64,000 bases of DNA from Crambe crambe (taxonomy: Eukaryota; Porifera; Demospongiae; Poecilosclerida; Crambeidae), in contig OZ004583.1 of the NCBI GenBank assembly GCA_963924555.1, positions 4,187,501 through 4,251,500 of the forward strand, given 5' to 3'. The position numbers were made by a program, and so were the translations under genes. The notes below the pieces were generated by a model, which saw only the letters and a list, made by a program, of their open reading frames with translations, made no database searches and had not been told where the DNA came from. Below, piece by piece: positions 53,452 through 64,000 of this stretch. The first letter of the stretch is position 1, and every line of letters starts with the position of its first letter.

Positions 53452-56400
53452 CTAACAAATGGAATCTAATGAAATTTTTAAATATACTGAGAAGAATTGC
53501 TCCCACGCTTGAAGTACACTTACAACAGTCAAAGTTGTCATGTGAGGATTATCATCTGTATTACTGTAAGAAAAAATTCTGTCACGATCTCTCTCCAAAC
53601 ACAACACTAAATGTTTTTGTGATTTCCTATGACCAGATGTTAGTACTGTTGGGAATGGAAGTTTATCTCGCATCAATGAATAACACCATAACAGGCGACT
53701 AATTCGCCCATTACCATCTTCAAAGGGATGTAGAGAGCAAATGTTAAAGTGGAGCCAACTTGCAAGCTCATATGGGTCGTGTGGACTGGAGAATTTCTCA
53801 TTATATTCTTTAACGAACTTTGCCATGTTATGAGGAATGCATGTGTAAGAAGGATAGACATGTCCACCACCTGACATCACGGAAATAGTCCGATAGGAAC
53901 CAGCATTGATTAATAGACCCTGTTCATTTTTTAAACCATGCATCATAATGCCATGTGCTTTCTTTATCACATTTTCAGTAAGATCCGGTAAATCATCTCT
54001 TCCTTCAGGGTTGCAGAGGAGTTCAAAGGCTTTAAAATGTTGTTTCACTTGGATGTGGCTCGGTGTGCTTACCTAATAAAACAAATTAGAGGTGTATATA
54101 AAGCCAAAAAACAGGTATAAAAAAGCTGAAGTTAGCTCGAGATAACTCAATCATTAATGAATATGTGAATATGTATTGCATAGTGAGAAATTTTTAAGGT
54201 CCAAAAATCATCAATAATTGATTGCCAACTGGCCACACCCCCTTGTAGACAAAGAAAGTAGCAGTGAAGGATGAGCTATGCACTAAAGCACACTTCACTT
54301 ACATAAATGTGTAAGATAGAAATTTGTGCAAATATTATTCCTCAAATTTTTTTTGCTATATTAAGCATATCCATACAAGCTGCTAGGTTTAATCATGACA
54401 TTGAGGTTGCTCACATTATCTTATCAGAGAGGACGATAGTACTCCCTAAGTAGGGATGGCACGGATTGCCCCATTGCACCAATACAAAGCATTTTTTCAT
54501 TATGCAGGAATGCTTCTCTTCTACTATCAACAGCTCCTGTCTTGAAAGACAAAGCAGTGTCATTTTACAGCGATTGCTGTTTTCATCTGGTCGTTCATCA
54601 TCATCAAATAACTTATTTCAGAAATGGTTCATTCAAATGCTTATACCACTCTACTCAGAAATGACTGTACTATAATCCTTTAATTCGACATTTCAAAAAT
54701 AATTCCAACCTGATAGCTTTCAACCTACAACGTGGCAGACATTTTTATGCATCACATCTGACTGGCACTGGTCTGGTTATGAATCAAGCCTTGATGCAAC
54801 TCTGACAATCAACTGTATAAATATGAGCATTTACCCTTCCTTTTGGCTGAAACCTCTGATAAACTGCATAGCTAAAGTACATATCTGGGATGGATAGGAG
54901 GATCACAGCATCCAGTTGCTACAAAGTAATGAGTATCTCTGAGACTATAATTATCCTAGATACATGCACCATATATTCATTATGGCTATCTGCATTATAT
55001 ATATATATATATATATAAAAATGAACAAGGAAAAATATTTATTCTAAATAAAAAGAAGTAGGGATGGCTGTGTGCGGTTCAAAAAAGTTCAGCAACAAGA
55101 GGAGTGAACTTCAGTCAAGTAACCCCATCTTGGCCTATCATGGGAGTGAAGTAGGAATAGTTAGCTCAAAGTTTGGTAATATTGGTGATGGGTAAGGGGT
55201 TACTTACTGAAGTTCACTTGAACTGCACACAGCCATCCCTACTTTTCTTTTTTATTTGTTTTCCTTTACTTGTCATAAGAGTGGCTCTGTGTATTAGTAT
55301 TCTTATGTGGTGAGGCTAGCAGAACTCCATTTTCTTCTTTCAACACAATTCAATATACCCACATCATGCATGGTGATGACCCTTACTTTAACTACACTTC
55401 TTGATATTGTTAGGCTACAAGGTGCTTTACAGAGAAATGTAGGGTGAGCCTGATGATCCTGATTGATGTGGTTAGAGTTTCTTGTGCATGGTGAATTTCT
55501 TGATTATTTGTGCAGGTATTTACCTTGAAAGCTGGTGCATATACGACTAGAGAGCCAACAACAACAGGTATTACAAGCACTAGAATCCTCGTTGTACAAA
55601 ATGCTGATTTTATAAGAGGAATATAAGGAGAATATGCATGACGAGACTCATTCCTCCCATGACTTTCATACCCTAATCTGCACTTCAACATTACCCTTCC
55701 CAGTAACAATGAGAACACCATCTTGATTCATGAAGAACATGTAATAAAACCATTGAAAAGTTCAAGTTAGATCTTAGGTGTAGTAGATGCAAAGTGACAA
55801 GACAAAGAAGTGATCCTGCACTAGCTATCGGAAAAACCGAAAAACAACTAACAAAAAAACTGACGCAGTTAAAAAAATTCTGCAAGGCATTAGCCTCGTA
55901 CCCAGGCCTTATAAATAAGGGCCTGGTATCCACTGTTTGCGCATGGCATCTATGAATATCATTATAGTGTGCCAATGACGCCGTAGAGTGGGAGGTGCTA
56001 ATTTGATGACTCAACATTTGCTGCAAGAACAAGACTCAGTAGCCAAGTTCTCCTTGGAAGCAGACTTTGAAGAGGTGATTATGGAGGCCTTCACACACTT
56101 CTTTCTCAATCCTCTGACCTGATCCTCCATCTGGAGCAAGAGCTGCGCTTCTCTTTTCCAGCTAGCTACCACCTCTTTTTCTTATTAAAGAATCTCGCGC
56201 GGCCAAACCTTTCCGAGACAAATGGAAGTTCTGGTCCACTACAAAAGGCAGAACTTAGCTCTTCCCAAAACCAGTCGGCAGACATGAAAATACTTCGTAG
56301 ACAGACCTGATGGGCCAAGCTCTGTTCCTCCACATCAGGCAAGCCCAACATCTTGGAAAGCAACGGCATCAGAGAAATAAGTGTCGTTGCCGTTGGTAGC

Positions 56401-57285
56401 CACGTTGGTAGCCTACCTTATCGGTAGCTGAAGCTGGAGAAGCACCCTGTTCTATCTAGCCGTCATAGAAACAAGGCCCCGCCCAATATATTGTGACATG
56501 TTACGTATCCTAAAATTTCCAAAAGTGCAGAAAACCGTGAAAAACCAGCACATGTGCAAACACTAGATACCAGGCCCTTATTTTAATAAGGCCTTTACCA
56601 CATTGTGTGCATAACTAGGCCTGTAGCCAGCCTGTAGACAAAGCCTATTGGCTATTGTCCAGAAAAGGTCATATCCTAGCTATAACTCTGCCCTACTGAG
56701 ACTCTAAAGCAGCAGAGACTTTGGTGCTAACTTATAAGTCTTGCTGTAAAACACTAGTGGATTGTGAAGAAGTGGTACCATCTTCATCTACTCATAATCT
56801 TCATACTTTATAGCAACAATTGAGCTAGCTGGCTAAGTCATTGTTTATTATTTCATAAAGTGGGCATGGTTTGCACACGAACGTTCAAAAGCTAGTTCTG
56901 GCCAATGTAAGGCAATTCTGTCATTTTTGATAATCTTACTAGGCTGACTGGAATATCACAGTGTCAGAATTTCCCCACCCTTATAATTGCTTAAAGGCAG
57001 GCCTTTTTCTTGACAAAGACTTACTTTTGTATTGCTCAAAGCATTCTCTACGTCATCCATGCTGATTCCTTTTGGGAGGGTATCTTCAAGAAGATTACTA
57101 AACCATATTAATTTCACTGCCATCTTATCTTTAAATTCTTTCATTCCTTTGGCGTACTTAGCTTCAAAGGACAGGGTTTTCTCCCATTTTTCTTGTATTT
57201 TCACACATTTCTGCCAAACATTAAAAGGATCTTCAAACCCCGGCAAAAATCGGAGCTTCGCTAATGGCGGGCCTGCCTGAGTCAT
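53452..57285 (-). CDS. Fic-domain protein A (AMP-transferase fold)
   Basis: Two exons (minus): 57285-57025 and 54072-53452, joined in phase 0; 293 aa. The N-terminal helical part has SNLLED at residues 63-68, matching the place of the inhibitory (S/T)-x-x-x-E-(G/N) helix, with Asp as the last residue. The flap region reads INAGSYRTISVMSGGGHVYP. The Fic motif HPFEDGNGRISR is at 202-213, with all catalytic and phosphate-binding residues. Fic enzymes transfer AMP or related groups to Ser/Thr/Tyr hydroxyls, or remove them. There is no TPR, signal peptide or membrane segment as in FICD. The 2.95-kb intron carries two inverted-repeat elements. It is divergent from Fic protein B. Confidence 0.88.
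55058..55242. repeat. GTAGGGATGGC-ended inverted-repeat MITE
   Basis: 185 bp in the Fic A intron. The left end GTAGGGATGGCTGTGTGCGG is matched inverted at the right end (ctgcacacagccatccctac), and gtgaacttcagtcaagtaac pairs with gttactt.actgaagttcac. A similar start (gtagggatggcacgg) stands alone at 54451. Confidence 0.9.
55903..56594. repeat. ~690-bp element with ~45-bp inverted ends (GGCCTTAT)
   Basis: The left end caggccttataaataagggc, then ctggtatcc.ctgtttgcgcatg, matches the inverted right end aaggccttattaaaataagg, then gcctggtatc.agtgtttgca. Each end is itself a small palindrome. A 67-codon minus-strand ORF at 56369-56166 lies inside and is not recognised. Confidence 0.8.
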
Positions 57286-57858
57286 CCCGATCCCTGAGCT
57301 GAGTGACTGGCGCTTCTTTCCAAATGTGTGTACCGCCCACAGGATTGCATCACGCAACCATCAAGACGACCATCTTGACCATCACGACCATCGATCACGA
57401 CCATCTTGACCATCACGACCATCATGACCATATCGACGACTATCATCGACCATGACGTCATCATATCGAATATCAGCACGAAAAGCCTATAGGAATACTT
57501 AGTCTGGCATAGCACCGCCCACCGACTAAAGTCGGTGGGCGGTGCTGTGCCAGACTAAGGAATACTTGCTCGTTCGCTCGCTGTAACTCAAATGTTGTAC
57601 ATTGCCCTAGTTATATTTGTTACAGTCAAGCGTTGTTGTTGGACTTGTTACTGTTGAGAAGCTTGCAGATACAACTAGCTGCACCGATTATTATGCGCAT
57701 GCGTAAAATGTGTTATGCATATCAGCTCAGGACATTCCAATAGGCATTCCTGTCGTTTCTTGAGCTTTGTATACGCTTTTTGAGTGGACCCAACGTACAT
57801 GTATAACCTGGACTGACATCTGAAGAGCAACTTTCAATCGCTGACACTTAGCGACGTC
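57286..57858. promoter_or_regulatory. Divergent region between the two Fic genes
   Basis: 573 bp between opposing start codons. 57358-57465 is a degenerate minisatellite of 9-11-bp units (ccatcacga, ccatcttga). 57500-57557 is a hairpin element (separate entry). A shared promoter is possible but no core elements are evident. Confidence 0.45.
57500..57557. mobile_element. 58-bp hairpin mini-transposon with 9-bp target duplication
   Basis: TAGTCTGGC...GCCAGACTA with 27-bp arms (one mismatch) and almost no loop. It is flanked on both sides by AGGAATACT (57491-57499 and 57558-57566). The termini resemble the P-like element ends (TAGTCTCG...CGAGACTA). Confidence 0.9.
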
Positions 57859-59685
57859 ATGGACCCTACACGTACGTCAGTCAGGTACTAGCTATAGCTA
57901 TCTATAAATCATTGGCCAGGGATTGAAACCATTGGCTTTGTTGAGAGGTTGGAGGCCCTTTGGAGGTTTTCTTTTATAGCCCCATTTAGATGAAGTCATA
58001 TAAATAGTGATTCCGGAAGCCATACATTTCCTGAAACTTTCCCTAGCTTATAACAAGGCCTACCTGCTGCTGTAGGTTTCCCAAGAACAGGTGAAGTATA
58101 TAGATGCTACAGAGATTTGCTATTTTCCCATATAAATTTCCATTGAACTAAAAATCAATGGCGACATAGCCAACTGGTCCATTTGGTGTTTGAGTAGTTA
58201 GTACATTTATTAAGCTACTCTGGATGTGAGTTTCATGTTCATGTGTTAACTTGTCTCTGAGATAGAACTAGTTATAATAATTATGTGGGCAGGTCTAGCT
58301 TTCAGAATCACTAATATAAACCCCTATGAGTAGCAGTACTGGCTAGTAGTCACTTTTGTACCAGCGAACTGCATAAATAATACTTAATACAGGAGCTTGT
58401 ACACTATAAAAACAAAGCATACACTGCACACTCATAGTGTATGTATAGGGACATTTTAGTGTGCAATGGTGTCTAGAGTGTGCATTTGAGTGTACATTGC
58501 ACACTCATAGTGTATGTATAGGGACATTTTAGTGTACATAGAGTGTGTGTATTGGGACATTTTGATATCGACATTCCAGCTTTCACAATAACATCTAACC
58601 ACATGATCCAGATCATCAGGCTCACCCCATGAATTTAATTATGCGTTATAATGCACATATGTAGTATAATACCATTGTGCCACCCTATAGCTAATGCTTA
58701 AAATATTGTAAATTTTCTAGCCGCTCTACCTCCATTTTCGGATCACAATGGATACCTATTCAAAGATATACTAGGACATACCCCTGAAGCAGCACACCAA
58801 TTTTGTACAGAAATTCAGGATAAGTGGCGTGAGGATTTTTCTAAAGATGCTGAGCTTGCTAAATATATGAAGGAATGGAAAAAAACTAGGGCTATTCATT
58901 TAGTGTGTATATCAAATAAGTTTGGGGCTACTTTTCCAGATAAAGTGGATGAATTGAAAACGTATCAGCTGCTATCTGATATTTATGATTCAAAAAAAAC
59001 ATGTGACACTGATGAAACACAGGTTGGCAGTAGTGATGCTGAAGAAGATCGGACTAGTGAACGTCAACTAAAGCAACACTTAAATGCTTTGCTTCCCCTT
59101 ATTGATAATCCTGATGATTTATCAGAAAAATTAATCAAAGAAGCACATCATCATCTCATGAAAGATCTGTCTAGTGAGGGTCATACTATTACTGCTGGAT
59201 TTTATAGAGAAAACGCAGTACATGCTGGGAATCATACTTTCATTCGTCATGAAGATGTTCCTGCTTCTATGACGAGGATTATTAAGCAATATAATGAAAG
59301 ATTTGAAAAAAAACATAATTCCATTGAACTTGCTAGTTGGCTTTTGATGGAAATGCTACAAATACATCCATTTCAGGATGGAAATGGACGTTTATCACGT
59401 TTACTTTGGTGCTATTCACTAATGAGAGATGGACTGCCATTTCCAGTCATTCCTTTCCCAGGAAGAAACAAAGCTTACAAACAGTACATAAAATGCATTC
59501 AGCGGGATCAGGATAGTTTTGATAATTCAAATAAACACATGAATTCACTAACTCTTATTAGTATCACAATGACATGGAAAAACTTTATTATAAATTTGAA
59601 ATTGGAAAATCCAACAAAGTATGACATGATCATCACTTGGTTGAAGGAAAGTGGTAACATGCTTAAGAGTAACTATGATAAGTAA
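57859..59685 (+). CDS. Fic-domain protein B (AMP-transferase fold)
   Basis: The large exon 58721-59685 is certain from residue 6 on. A 13-bp first exon 57859-57871 (MDPT, donor GTACGT) fits in phase, giving 325 aa. An in-frame Met at 58867 is the fallback start. The region aligned with the inhibitory helix of Fic A reads SNKFGA (residues 69-74), so Glu is replaced by Gly. A linker rich in Asp/Glu/Ser follows, then the flap (ITAGFYRENAVHAGNHTFIR) and the Fic motif HPFQDGNGRLSR (about 220-231), complete. The two Fic proteins share SRLLWCYSLMRD and are paralogues. Intron 57872-58720 contains only a TACACT-type repeat. The first exon is less certain than the rest. Confidence 0.85.
58400..58570. 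repeat. TACACT-type repeat, rearranged copy
   Basis: The block tgcacactcatagtgtatgt followed by atagggacattttagtg occurs twice in direct order, with a third variant gtgtgtgtattgggacatttt. It is related in composition to the hairpin at 31308-31430. Confidence 0.7.
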
Positions 59686-59871
59686 CATTGTTTTGCTGTG
59701 CTGCTTGTTTGTGTTGCATTCATTAGTTATGATATTTAAATAAATTATTTTGTTAGCTCTGGTATTCTCCTTGACACATGCGCTTGTACAAATTAACCTT
59801 TGAATCATGATGGATGTAGGTACGAGTGTAATAATATAAATATTCATACAATCAAAGTAAAACAACTATAG

Positions 59872-62800
59872 TTATTTAGCTCTATACATTGAGCCTTTTC
59901 TCCTTGACCCAGGAGGAGAAGGGTTAGAAACTCCAACAATTGGTCCATTTTTCACACTGGGTAAGAATCCGTCAGGTTTTTCTGCTTGTTCTTTAATCCT
60001 AGGAAGCATGTTGGGTTTCCTAGATGCTGCATGTGGTACACTTATAATCAGAAATGCTGATAGCTAAATGGTGAAGCATTATAGCTAATAGAGGGAAGTT
60101 GTTCCTTCTAGGCTTATGTGAAATGCTAAGAGTATGAATCATACCTCTAAGATTCATTAATTTTTTAGCAGATTTTTGGAGAGGAACAGGATGAGCTGAT
60201 GAGGGCTGGAGAGAGCTTGTTTGTGCACCAGTGAGAATTTTCCCTTTTTTGAAGGAATGTCTGTACTCATTTGTTGGACTGGAGTTAGGAGGTGGTGGAG
60301 GGGTAGGGGGAGAAACAAAAGGATCTTTACTGTGTCCATTAGACCCCGCTAATGAAGTTAAGTGAACATAATAATTATGTAGCTAACATTAAAAGTTTCC
60401 TAGGAACAGCTTACAATGACCAGGATTGACTTTGGCAAAGCCACTGGCATGAGTAGTGCTAAGATAATGACCAGGATTGACTTTGGTGAAGCCACTGGCA
60501 TGAGCAGAAATTTAACGTTAAGATGATGGGCAGACTTGGGCTGGCCAGATAATCTAAGGATCCCCTTCTGATTAAAAGGGCATTTATCCTTTGGCAGACT
60601 TGAAGTTTGAGGTTTAGGAAGGAGCGGGAGCAATAATCCAGGAGCATTCTAAGTAGAGGAAATAGAGTTATTATAAGCTCTGGAGTAGATGTAATTCTAG
60701 ATATATACTGGAATGGCTATCTCAGCCTGAATAATGACTATTGTATTCTGAGTACTTACTTGATACAACGGAATTTGAGCAGGACTTCAGTTTTTTCAGT
60801 TGCACATAAATCATTACCTCCAATTTTGGGAAATTTTATACATTCTGAATACGTGATACAAATAAAATCTAATTCATCATAACATCGACTCTCTTGCCTT
60901 TATTTCTTGAGCTGAACTCCTTCAACATGTTCTCACTACTACCAAGGTTATTCTGTACTTGCTTGGGTTTAATTTTAGGATATTCTATTTGATTATTATT
61001 ATGATCATCATTAAACTTCACTAATAATGTTAATTCGTTACCTCCATTTGAGCTTAACTCCCTCAGTTTTTTTTCGCTACCACTAGTACTGTTTTGAACT
61101 TGAGACATTTCTGAGCAGAGTGAATGATCATAAACTGACTAGTTACAACATTAACTCTTACTAGATGCAAATTTGCTGCCTGTATTTGACCTGACCTTCA
61201 AAGTGGTCCCTGGTTATAACAAAATATAGCAGAAACTAGTGACCATTACCTGATGCAAATTGACTGCCTTCATCAAAATTTGAGTTGTACTTTTTTTGTT
61301 ACACACTCACCACTACCATTTTTATCTGGATCTTGCATTGATCCAATTTGAGGCAACTTTGAACCTTCTCATTATGAATAGATGACAACATGATCAGGTG
61401 ATGAAATTTGAACTAATCTTACTGGATAAAGAGCTAGACTCCTTCAATATTTTCTCACCAATATTGTCATTATGAACTTGAAACATTTCAGAATGTATTA
61501 TTCATAATAACTTAGACATTAATAATACAATATCAGTCCTTACTTGATTGACTGCTTGCAAATGAACTAGCCTTCACTGTGGCTTTACTATCACCTTTAG
61601 GACTTTGTTCTGGTGTAATAGGGGATAGTAAAATTCATCAATTTCAAACATCAGTCCTTACTTGGTGAAATTTTATTGCCTGCTTTTTCCACTCTGCTCA
61701 AAGTATATCCTAAAATGTAATAAAAACATAACAGGTAACTAACATTTGGGACTGTCAATCCTTACTTGATGCTAATTCACTACCTGAATTTGAGCTGGCC
61801 TCCTCTACTCTGTTCAAATTACTACCTGAATATTCTGAATAGTAACAACATGTAACAGTATTTTAGGAACATAAATCCTTAGTTACTTGATGCAAGTCTA
61901 CCTGTATAGAAACAAAATGTAATAGTATTTTTTAGGAACATAAATCCTTAGTTACTTAATGCAAGTCCACTGCCTGTTTTTGAACTGGCCTCTTTTACTG
62001 TACTACTTTTATGTTCTGAATAGTAATAAAAATAATAGTAGTAACATTTTTGGAGTGTCAATAATACTTACTTGATTCTAGTTTACTGCCTGCATTTAAA
62101 CTGGCCTCCTCTACTGTGTTCAAACTACTACCTTTGTATTCTGAATAGTAATGATAGGTAGCTAACAGTAATAATTATTATTAGGAATATAAATCCATAG
62201 TTACTTGATGCAAGTTGACTGCTGGTTTTTGATCTGGCCTCTATATACCATTGTGCTCAAACTACTACCTTTGTATTCTGAATAGTAATAAAGGTAAGAA
62301 GATTCATTTTAAATACTTACTCGATGCTAATTCACTGCTTGCAGTAGAGCTGGCCCTCACTACTTTGCTCAAACTAACCCCTTGTAAATTCTGAATAGCA
62401 TAACAGTGATAATAACACGTTGTGAGTATCAATTCTTACTTGATGCAAGTTCACTGCTTGGATTTGAGTTGATCTCTTCTACTGTGCTTGAATTACTACC
62501 CGTATATTCTGAATAGTAGCGAAAGGTAACAGTAACGTTTGAGAATATAAATCCTTATTTACTTGATGCAAATTCACTGCCTGCATTAGAACTGGCTTCC
62601 TCTACTGTGCTCAAACTAACACCTATATAATAATAAAAGCAAAATAGGTAACAATTTCATTATACAGGTAACAGTAAATATTGGGAACATAAATTCTTAG
62701 TTACTCGATGAAAATTCACTGCCCGTTTTTGAGCTGGCCTCTTTCACTGTGTTCAAACTACTATCCGTATATCCTGAATAATAATAAAAGCATAAGAAGT

Positions 62801-64000
62801 AACAGTAACATTTAGTGAGCATTATTCCTTACTTGATGCTAATTCACTGCCTGCATTTGAGCTGGCCTTCACTACTGTGTTCGAAGAACTACATTCTGAA
62901 TAGTAATGACACAGGTAACAGATATAAATTCTTAGTTACTCAATGAAAACTCACTGCCTGTTTTAGAGCAGGCCTCCTTCACTGTGTTCAAACTACTACC
63001 TGTATATCCTGAATCAGTAATAACAAGTAACAGTAACATTTTGTGAGCATCATTCCTTACTTGATGCTAATTCACTGCCATTTGAACTGGCCTCCTCCAC
63101 AGTGCTCAAAGTACAACCTACATATCCAGAGTAGTAGGTACATAATAGGAACATCAATCGTTAGTTACTTGATGTTAATTCATTGCCATTTGAGCTGGCC
63201 TCCTCCACAGTGCTCCTTCACACGTTCCACTGAAATTACCTTTGTGAGGTAACGACCACTGATTTTCTCCCTGTAGGTCTTCCCTTCCACCATTCCCTGA
63301 CACGTAACACTCAAGTAACTTTGACTGTTCATGCTTACTCTGACATGGTACATACCTGAGTTAATAATTTCTGGAATGGTTCTCTTGTCTTGAGTTTATC
63401 AATATTATAGAGAAACGTGTGATGAAGTGGGCATACAAGAGGTAGAAAATTGCTGCAAAAGTTGAAGCTATTGTTAAATTTATGAAATGCTGCCATTCAC
63501 TGATGCAGAGAAACGCATGAGGAACTACGATACACAAGGATCACATTATTCCAGTGACATTAATTTATATCCAATTATGTAGGTAGATAAATTTCTGTTT
63601 TGGGTTATCTCTCTGAAACTCATTTCGGATGCATGTTACTATCAAAAAATATTACAATTGTGTTAATCTAGTGTTAAAAATAATTAAAAGCAAGCTACAC
63701 ATTGGAAATTAAATTAATAAAATTGTTCTCATGAATTATTTGTAATATGAAATATTGCCAAACTGCAATAACATGAATTGAACTGAAATTAATAGAGATA
63801 TTAGGGTGTCATCATTATACCCCTTGTCTAGCTGCATTTGAAGCCTGTCTATTCCACAATATATTTCTTAAATTACTTACTGGATACATACCATGTTCAT
63901 TGCCTCCAATATAACATCCACTGGCATCCACTGGCATCCACTTAAAGACGTCTTCAGTAAAAGGTCTGAAGATATGATATGACATGCAAACATATATAGT
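59872..64000 (-). CDS. DM9-domain protein with tandem-exon tail, 5'-partial
   Basis: The gene continues past the right edge. First visible exons (minus): 63965-63892 and 63355-about 63224. They encode a DM9-type unit: FKWMPVDASGCYIGGNEHG, then YHVRVSMNSQSYLSV and CQGMVEGKTYREKISGRYL. DM9 units bind mannose in known cases. Then a run of ~15-18 small exons (63130-60870), most with phase 1 at both ends, encodes 18-23-residue Ser-rich repeats (YTGSSLNTVKEA, YSGSNLNRVEEASS). The 3' part has Pro-rich exons 60348-60145 (SPPTPPPPPNSSPTNEYR) and 60026-59872 (stop; basic tail RRKGSMYRAK). The join around 60400-60900, where a stop at 60869 could end an isoform, is unresolved. It converges on Fic B, 186 bp away. 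Confidence 0.7.
60870..63236 (-). repeat. Tandem exon array (~15-18 exon/intron units of ~115-130 bp)
   Basis: Cores recur near 61190, 61345, 61570, 61670, 61800, 61990, 62105, 62230, 62355, 62480, 62600, 62740, 62855, 62970, 63090 and 63205. Each has a minus-strand acceptor (often ttcag), a 50-70-bp exon and a donor a|GTAAG. The best-defined unit is 62140-62072 (69 bp). The copies at 62230 and 63205 are frameshifted or lack a compatible acceptor. A second subtype at the 3' side encodes VQNSTSGSEKKLRELSS and VHNDNIGEKILKESSS. Confidence 0.8.

Follow-up and report, generated by a model that had tools for sequence, protein, structure and literature searches.

A probable decaying duplicate of a mini-exon gene beside repeated leucyl-tRNA synthetase gene copies in candidate (peri)centromeric DNA of the sponge Crambe crambe

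The window, i.e., the whole 64,000-nt stretch of Crambe crambe DNA analysed here, corresponds to C5:4187501-4251500, and the last few kilobases of its minus strand carry a series of short exons (Table 1). Exons were chained with a splice-chain script using AG/GT scores and an open frame, with all phases allowed and introns of 30-420 bp. On the minus strand of positions 59860-63215 the script called 19 exons, 15 of them phase 1-1, with a score of 108.3. Twenty dinucleotide shuffles of the same interval gave a mean score of 31.3 (SD, 11.1; maximum, 54.7) and at most six exons in any one symmetric phase class, and the plus strand yielded eight exons, one of which was phase 1-1 (score, 29.2). The mini-exon array in this interval is real, and the claim of an earlier, sequence-only reading that symmetric mini-exons are arrayed here was borne out by values above those of all 20 shuffles. 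Called unit exons were mostly 48-69 nt long (16-23 aa, Ser-rich), with one of 15 nt. Unit starts lay 100-151 bp apart in 12 of 13 cases and 67 bp apart in the remaining one. Within the array, a tandem repeat finder reported positions 61835-61967 alone; the units have diverged from one another. Over 62 aa, the last exon shows 35% identity to the C-terminal end of a paralogue at C5:1.81 Mb.

Table 1. Features at the array and its flanks (positions within the window).
Feature	Position	Strand	Remarks
Segmental duplicate, in pieces	54211..63215	.	Of C5:4338004 to ~4351.1-4351.2 kb, same orientation
Last coding exon	59872..60026	-	Ends ...GSRRKGSMYRAK, stop at 59872; boundaries by eye
Penultimate coding exon, Pro-rich	60145..60348	-	Phase 1-1; splice-chain model
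Exon with changed frame	60844-60760	-	85 nt vs 87 nt in parent
Further exons	61209-61162, 61110-60937	-	Phase 1-1
Mini-exon array	61544..63117	-	Splice-chain model, shuffles as control
Array units	63117-63061, 63008-62940, 62895-62833, 62773-62705, 62622-62563, 62508-62440	-	All phase 1-1
Array units (rest)	62140-62072, 62015-61956, 61901-61887, 61834-61766, 61709-61662, 61609-61544	-	All phase 1-1
Frameshifted unit	62205..62277	-	73 nt vs 69 nt in parent (alignment)
Frameshifted unit	62321..62390	-	70 nt vs 69 nt in parent (alignment)
First-unit remnant	63169..63215	-	Cut by breakpoint
Leucyl-tRNA synthetase exon remnant (GMVEGKTYREKISGRYLTK...)	63216..63296	-	Cut at 63216; same exon in L011: TIGR00396, 7.2e-14
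Leucyl-tRNA synthetase exon (...REPFQKLLTQ)	63346..63452	-	1-bp frameshift common to many copies
Leucyl-tRNA synthetase exon (PFTEDVFKWMPVDASGCYIGGNEH)	63892..63965	-	Between collinear L001 and L011 TIGR00396 matches

The neighbouring exons at 63216-64000 had been read as a DM9 unit, but they proved to come from a bacterial-type (mitochondrial) leucyl-tRNA synthetase gene, present here as a broken copy. A Pfam search of two pieces from 63.2-64 kb returned no DM9 (PF11901) at E values up to 10; a genome-wide DM9 profile search was also without a match, but control genomes were silent too, so this result says little alone. Collinear matches to TIGR00396 (leuS_bact) covered profile positions 13-69, 150-198, 298-360, and 475-508 in the stretch L001 and positions 561-635 and 636-702 in L011, and six of nine pieces from synthetase regions matched this profile at E = 1.4e-6 or better, a seventh being weak (0.0097). 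The window's own two pieces are too short to match TIGR00396 alone and were assigned to the synthetase by the collinear order and by the DNA identity (85-99%) of 63300-63216 with 38 other sites in the genome (among the best 40 of 64 candidates scored). A match to the editing domain (PF13603) lies at C5:4252382-4252564, and the gene runs on upstream in L001 to ~C5:4254.3 kb. Exon 63892..63965 is 9 bp longer than in L011, which has 63 nt for the same probe. The window copy of the synthetase has no intact frame, being cut at 63216 and frameshifted in exon 63346-63452; the latter lesion is missing from L015, L016, L019, L020, L021, L028, L030, and L044.

Nor does the array form the tail of a DM9-fronted protein, since what abuts it at 63215/63216 is the synthetase fragment. 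A single reading frame running from synthetase into array (63180-63395) was rejected because it meets a stop at 63180, inside the first truncated unit. A 71-aa frame that reads through an intron gave weak matches only in a search of solved structures, the best being a ribosomal protein (E = 0.095). Although symmetric units do exist, the exons contain no DM9 and are those of leucyl-tRNA synthetase, and a DM9 lectin with a splice-variable tail is thus practically inconceivable.

The array itself lies in a segmental duplicate whose main pieces are 71.6%, 78.3%, and 80.4% identical to their source, with 88.5% over 61898-63215. Similarity to the parent stops exactly at 63215, where synthetase homology starts (C5:4250716). 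Open frames with a Fic domain were observed in opposite orientations at 53452-54072 (minus strand; E = 1.8e-18) and 58702-59685 (plus strand; E = 8.6e-18), the second of which sits inside the duplicated segment. The fuller relative of the window array, referred to here as the parent gene, is located 100 kb away on the minus strand of C5:4347.8-4359.6 kb. Its first exon starts with an ATG, comprises 718 codons (4357466-4359622, including the stop of the unspliced frame), and begins MGRGKRIMKWIKRN; by eye, the start MGRGKRIMKWIKRNIF bears no resemblance to a signal peptide. Exons between the first exon and the array were joined at phase 1 by reading of the sequence, and the chain script set some of these upstream boundaries differently, nine of the 60 exons in its chain not being 1-1. 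The 8.6-kb parent array comprised 55 modelled exons, 49 of them phase 1-1, with a score of 301.9, compared with a mean of 47.6 (SD, 25.5; maximum, 94.1) for 10 shuffles. Five control stretches or strands each contained no more than four phase 1-1 exons; the minus strand of control L063 (10 kb) chained 32 exons at a score of 118.9, above the parent's shuffles, but only four were phase 1-1. Introns in the parent chain were 31-273 bp long (median, 57), and the unit spacing of the array itself precludes long introns. An open frame for a DDE_3 transposase (336 aa) was noted near the parent gene at C5:4371394-4371810 (minus strand; L026).

The parent units fall into one or two types whose copies have diverged. 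When 17 of them were compared, the synonymous share was 0.26 against 0.21 expected, a weak codon-position signal only, and coding by every unit is unproven because the units differ among themselves almost as if unconstrained. In a simulation with assumed rates of change between 0.10 and 0.20, the chance of finding 16 open units ranged from 1.3e-3 to 6.4e-6, to be read against a chain model that favours open units by design. The parent, too, includes one unit that lacks a donor, and a 2-bp difference near the end. Among 991 candidates in the protein collection, none matched residues 470-718 of the first exon at E ≤ 0.001, and no Pfam family matched this exon. A paralogue at C5:1.80 Mb (C5:1802282-1811000; L060, L065) shares with the parent its start (MGR.GK..KWIKRN.F) and the motif HLNTKVSAHA.GFT, and the two are 38% identical over 138 aa in a central block and 35% identical over 62 aa in the last exon; the Ser-rich repeats of the paralogue lie within one longer open frame. 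Given the shared N-terminus, middle block, and C-terminus, both gene ends look like conserved protein, and the paralogue supports the parent as a real gene, albeit one without a name. The parent gene probably yields a long, Ser-rich, disordered protein, and since its units are frame-neutral, the length of the tail could vary if exons are skipped or units are gained and lost. The earlier proposal that any subset of units would be frame-neutral holds for the parent gene, in which subsets would keep the frame.

In a search for the first exon, only the parent and, at 39%, the paralogue were found, leaving the window copy without one. Unit number differs between the copies as well, with 162 bp missing from the window copy at a place where the parent has portions of two units. 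Substitutions between window and parent numbered 91 in 1458 exon positions (6.2%) and 93 in 1639 intron positions (5.7%; Fisher p = 0.54), and codon positions 1+2 versus 3 showed no bias (p = 0.73). Over the same aligned bases, indels were fewer in exons (9 over 1458) than in introns (27 over 1639; Fisher p = 0.011); five of the nine and six of the 27 were multiples of 3 (p = 0.10), leaving four frame-breaking indels in exons and 21 in introns that were not multiples of 3. These comparisons used chain-called exons, so that part of the true exon sequence fell into the intron count. A separate set of 157 aligned bases at the 3′ end contained three differences (p = 0.033 versus the rest). The fewer exon indels and the conserved 3′ end make some lasting constraint on the window copy possible.

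One could take these same features, together with the retention of splice sites and frame in most units and of a paralogue-like C-terminus in the last exon, as signs that the window array is a second, active gene whose transcription begins on the synthetase side or at an internal promoter and whose protein is shortened. Such a gene would, however, be without the first exon present in the parent and, at 39%, in the paralogue; the fused synthetase frame stops at 63180, units and an exon near the 3′ end are frameshifted, and codon positions show no bias. We consider a live second gene clearly unlikely. As judged from its sequence, the window copy is most likely a decaying fragment.

Synthetase copies were then surveyed on all 18 chromosomes (C1, C3, C5, C6, and C8-C21). 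Of these, C1, C8, C11, C12, and C13 were matched to chromosomes by their order alone, and C2, C4, and C7 were presumed to be unplaced pieces. A 31-base probe from a synthetase exon, allowing up to three mismatches, hit 56 sites on 17 chromosomes, in one region each, and its reversed control hit none. The editing-domain profile gave 78 matches, 77 of which fell in the same regions or, on C12, defined one. The exception, C16:6073595, is 32% identical to synthetase probe E7 and is presumably a valyl-type synthetase. When merged by position and strand, the copies numbered ~66. Regions spanned up to 72 kb, except on C17 (267 kb), C9 (489 kb), and C1 (658 kb), and on C12, C14, and C20 the region was a single copy. 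On the 15 chromosomes carrying two or more probe sites the mean span was 0.126 Mb, versus 4.25 Mb for random placement (minimum, 2.65; 2000 draws). No bacterial-type synthetase copy was found outside these regions by the genome-wide probe and editing-domain profile. TTAGGG telomeres were looked for at contig ends and not found there.

The copies occur in both orientations, are ~85-94% alike between chromosomes, and remain similar through their introns and flanks. On C18 the orientation is ---+++; a 2.5-kb spacer separates inner arms that are 97.3% alike for at least 3.2 kb, and on C16 the arms of an inverted repeat are 97.8% alike for at least 5.5 kb. C3 has five copies that share one orientation (+++++), and three of their four intervals measure 11.3-11.9 kb; the copies with this spacing, at C3:4774661-4809743, resemble a higher-order tandem repeat. 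When 19 copy sets were compared with ten exon probes, the copies were seen to carry different lesions. In the C8 set, seven probes matched at full length and three gave no match, presumably owing to the shortness of the locus. In the C16 set, eight probes matched completely and two partially, but at a locus that holds two copies, so that its row may be a mosaic. In 17 of the ~66 copies, exon positions diverged by 0.059-0.084 and non-exon positions by 0.143; third positions were not faster, and hence there is no clear coding signature among the copies. A second repeat (L001:7121-8640; C5:4258521-4260040), self-similar at an offset of ~600 bp, gave 22 matches above 500 bits (one being itself) on nine chromosomes, all in or within ~55 kb of the synthetase regions, and weaker matches, mostly to its first 460 bases, that were dispersed (both among the best 40 of 1754 candidates). 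In contrast, matches to the DDE_3 transposase were spread along the chromosomes (best 150 of 278 candidates).

Two other origins of this distribution were weighed. The regions could be marks left, once on each chromosome, by a mobile or selfish element with a synthetase gene and a preference for one type of chromatin, rather than centromeres. Both orientations, the likeness of ~85-94% between chromosomes, and the accompanying short repeats, parts of which are also dispersed, would suit such an element, but the copies resemble one another across introns and flanks as well, none turned up elsewhere, and an unsystematic look at the stretches read revealed no element ends, transposase, or target-site duplications. 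On balance, a mobile element appears somewhat unlikely. Alternatively, both the synthetase regions and the array duplication may be products of collapsed or misjoined repeats in the assembly. Assembly is difficult where repeats are very similar, and the genome note records 62 corrected joins (PMC12166358). The same note, however, gives 459-fold HiFi coverage and a QV of 58.1; moreover, copies differ by up to ~15% and carry different lesions, and the two arrays are 80-89% identical. An assembly artefact is therefore very improbable.

One locus per chromosome was found on 18 of 18 chromosomes, as would be expected of centromeres, and we infer from this pattern, which is short of proof, that the synthetase regions are candidate (peri)centromeres. 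More specifically, the mitochondrial leucyl-tRNA synthetase gene, introns included, may be the centromere repeat unit in Crambe crambe: its ~66 copies occupy a single region per chromosome on 18 chromosomes, some of them arranged as inverted repeats and some, on C3, as a tandem of ~11.7-kb units. We regard this proposal as evenly balanced between right and wrong. The window holds the 3′ portion of a duplicated sponge gene with a central array of short phase 1-1 exons, cut at 63215 and abutting a repeat of intron-bearing mitochondrial synthetase gene copies; its duplication would be a pericentromeric segmental duplication. Taken as a whole, we think it probable that the locus is a decaying duplicate of a frame-neutral mini-exon gene beside a synthetase repeat in a presumed (peri)centromere. 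If the repeat is centromeric, the working synthetase gene would be expressed from inside a candidate centromere, since every bacterial-type copy found sits in such regions. The regions would also serve as a map of every one of the 18 sponge centromeres and show a housekeeping gene turned chromosome-wide repeat. The parent gene, for its part, offers a clean place for testing variation of frame-neutral mini-exon arrays in sponges.

In the open-access literature, no paper was found on sponge centromeric satellite DNA or on sponge mini-exons, and a search on Crambe crambe centromeres returned nothing relevant, only an unrelated marine-drugs paper. For leucyl-tRNA synthetase combined with centromere, pseudogene, or pericentromeric, the one paper found, judging by its available part, was a yeast review that shares the words (PMC5499181). 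The accessible portion of the Ephydatia genome paper mentions the centromere once, for a split scaffold, and that of PMC10232365 reports centromeres placed by Hi-C in unicellular relatives; in the main text of the Crambe genome note the word is absent (PMC12166358).

Compared with known systems, no likeness was found to DM9-domain proteins, the exons assigned to DM9 being synthetase exons. The micro-exon genes (MEGs) of Schistosoma, the exons of which are symmetric and skippable, resemble the parent gene and the window copy in having short exons in series. According to the abstract of a published account, MEGs have exons of 3-81 bp between long introns of up to 5 kbp and encode secreted products (PMC10526429). 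The parent gene shares the short symmetric exons but not the long introns; unlike MEGs, it has chain introns of 31-273 bp, a first exon coding for 718 aa, and diverged units of one or two types. With LARS2/leuS (bacterial-type, mitochondrial) the synthetase exons share the collinear match to TIGR00396, but the sponge gene is present in ~66 intron-bearing copies, many of them broken. The regional centromeres of Candida tropicalis and fission yeast (PMC4741521, in its available part) resemble the sponge regions in having a repeat shared across chromosomes, one locus each, and in places near-identical inverted arms. Unlike those of the yeasts, the sponge repeat belongs to an animal and includes an intron-containing protein-coding gene, and its orientations are not symmetric on all chromosomes, as on C3 (+++++).
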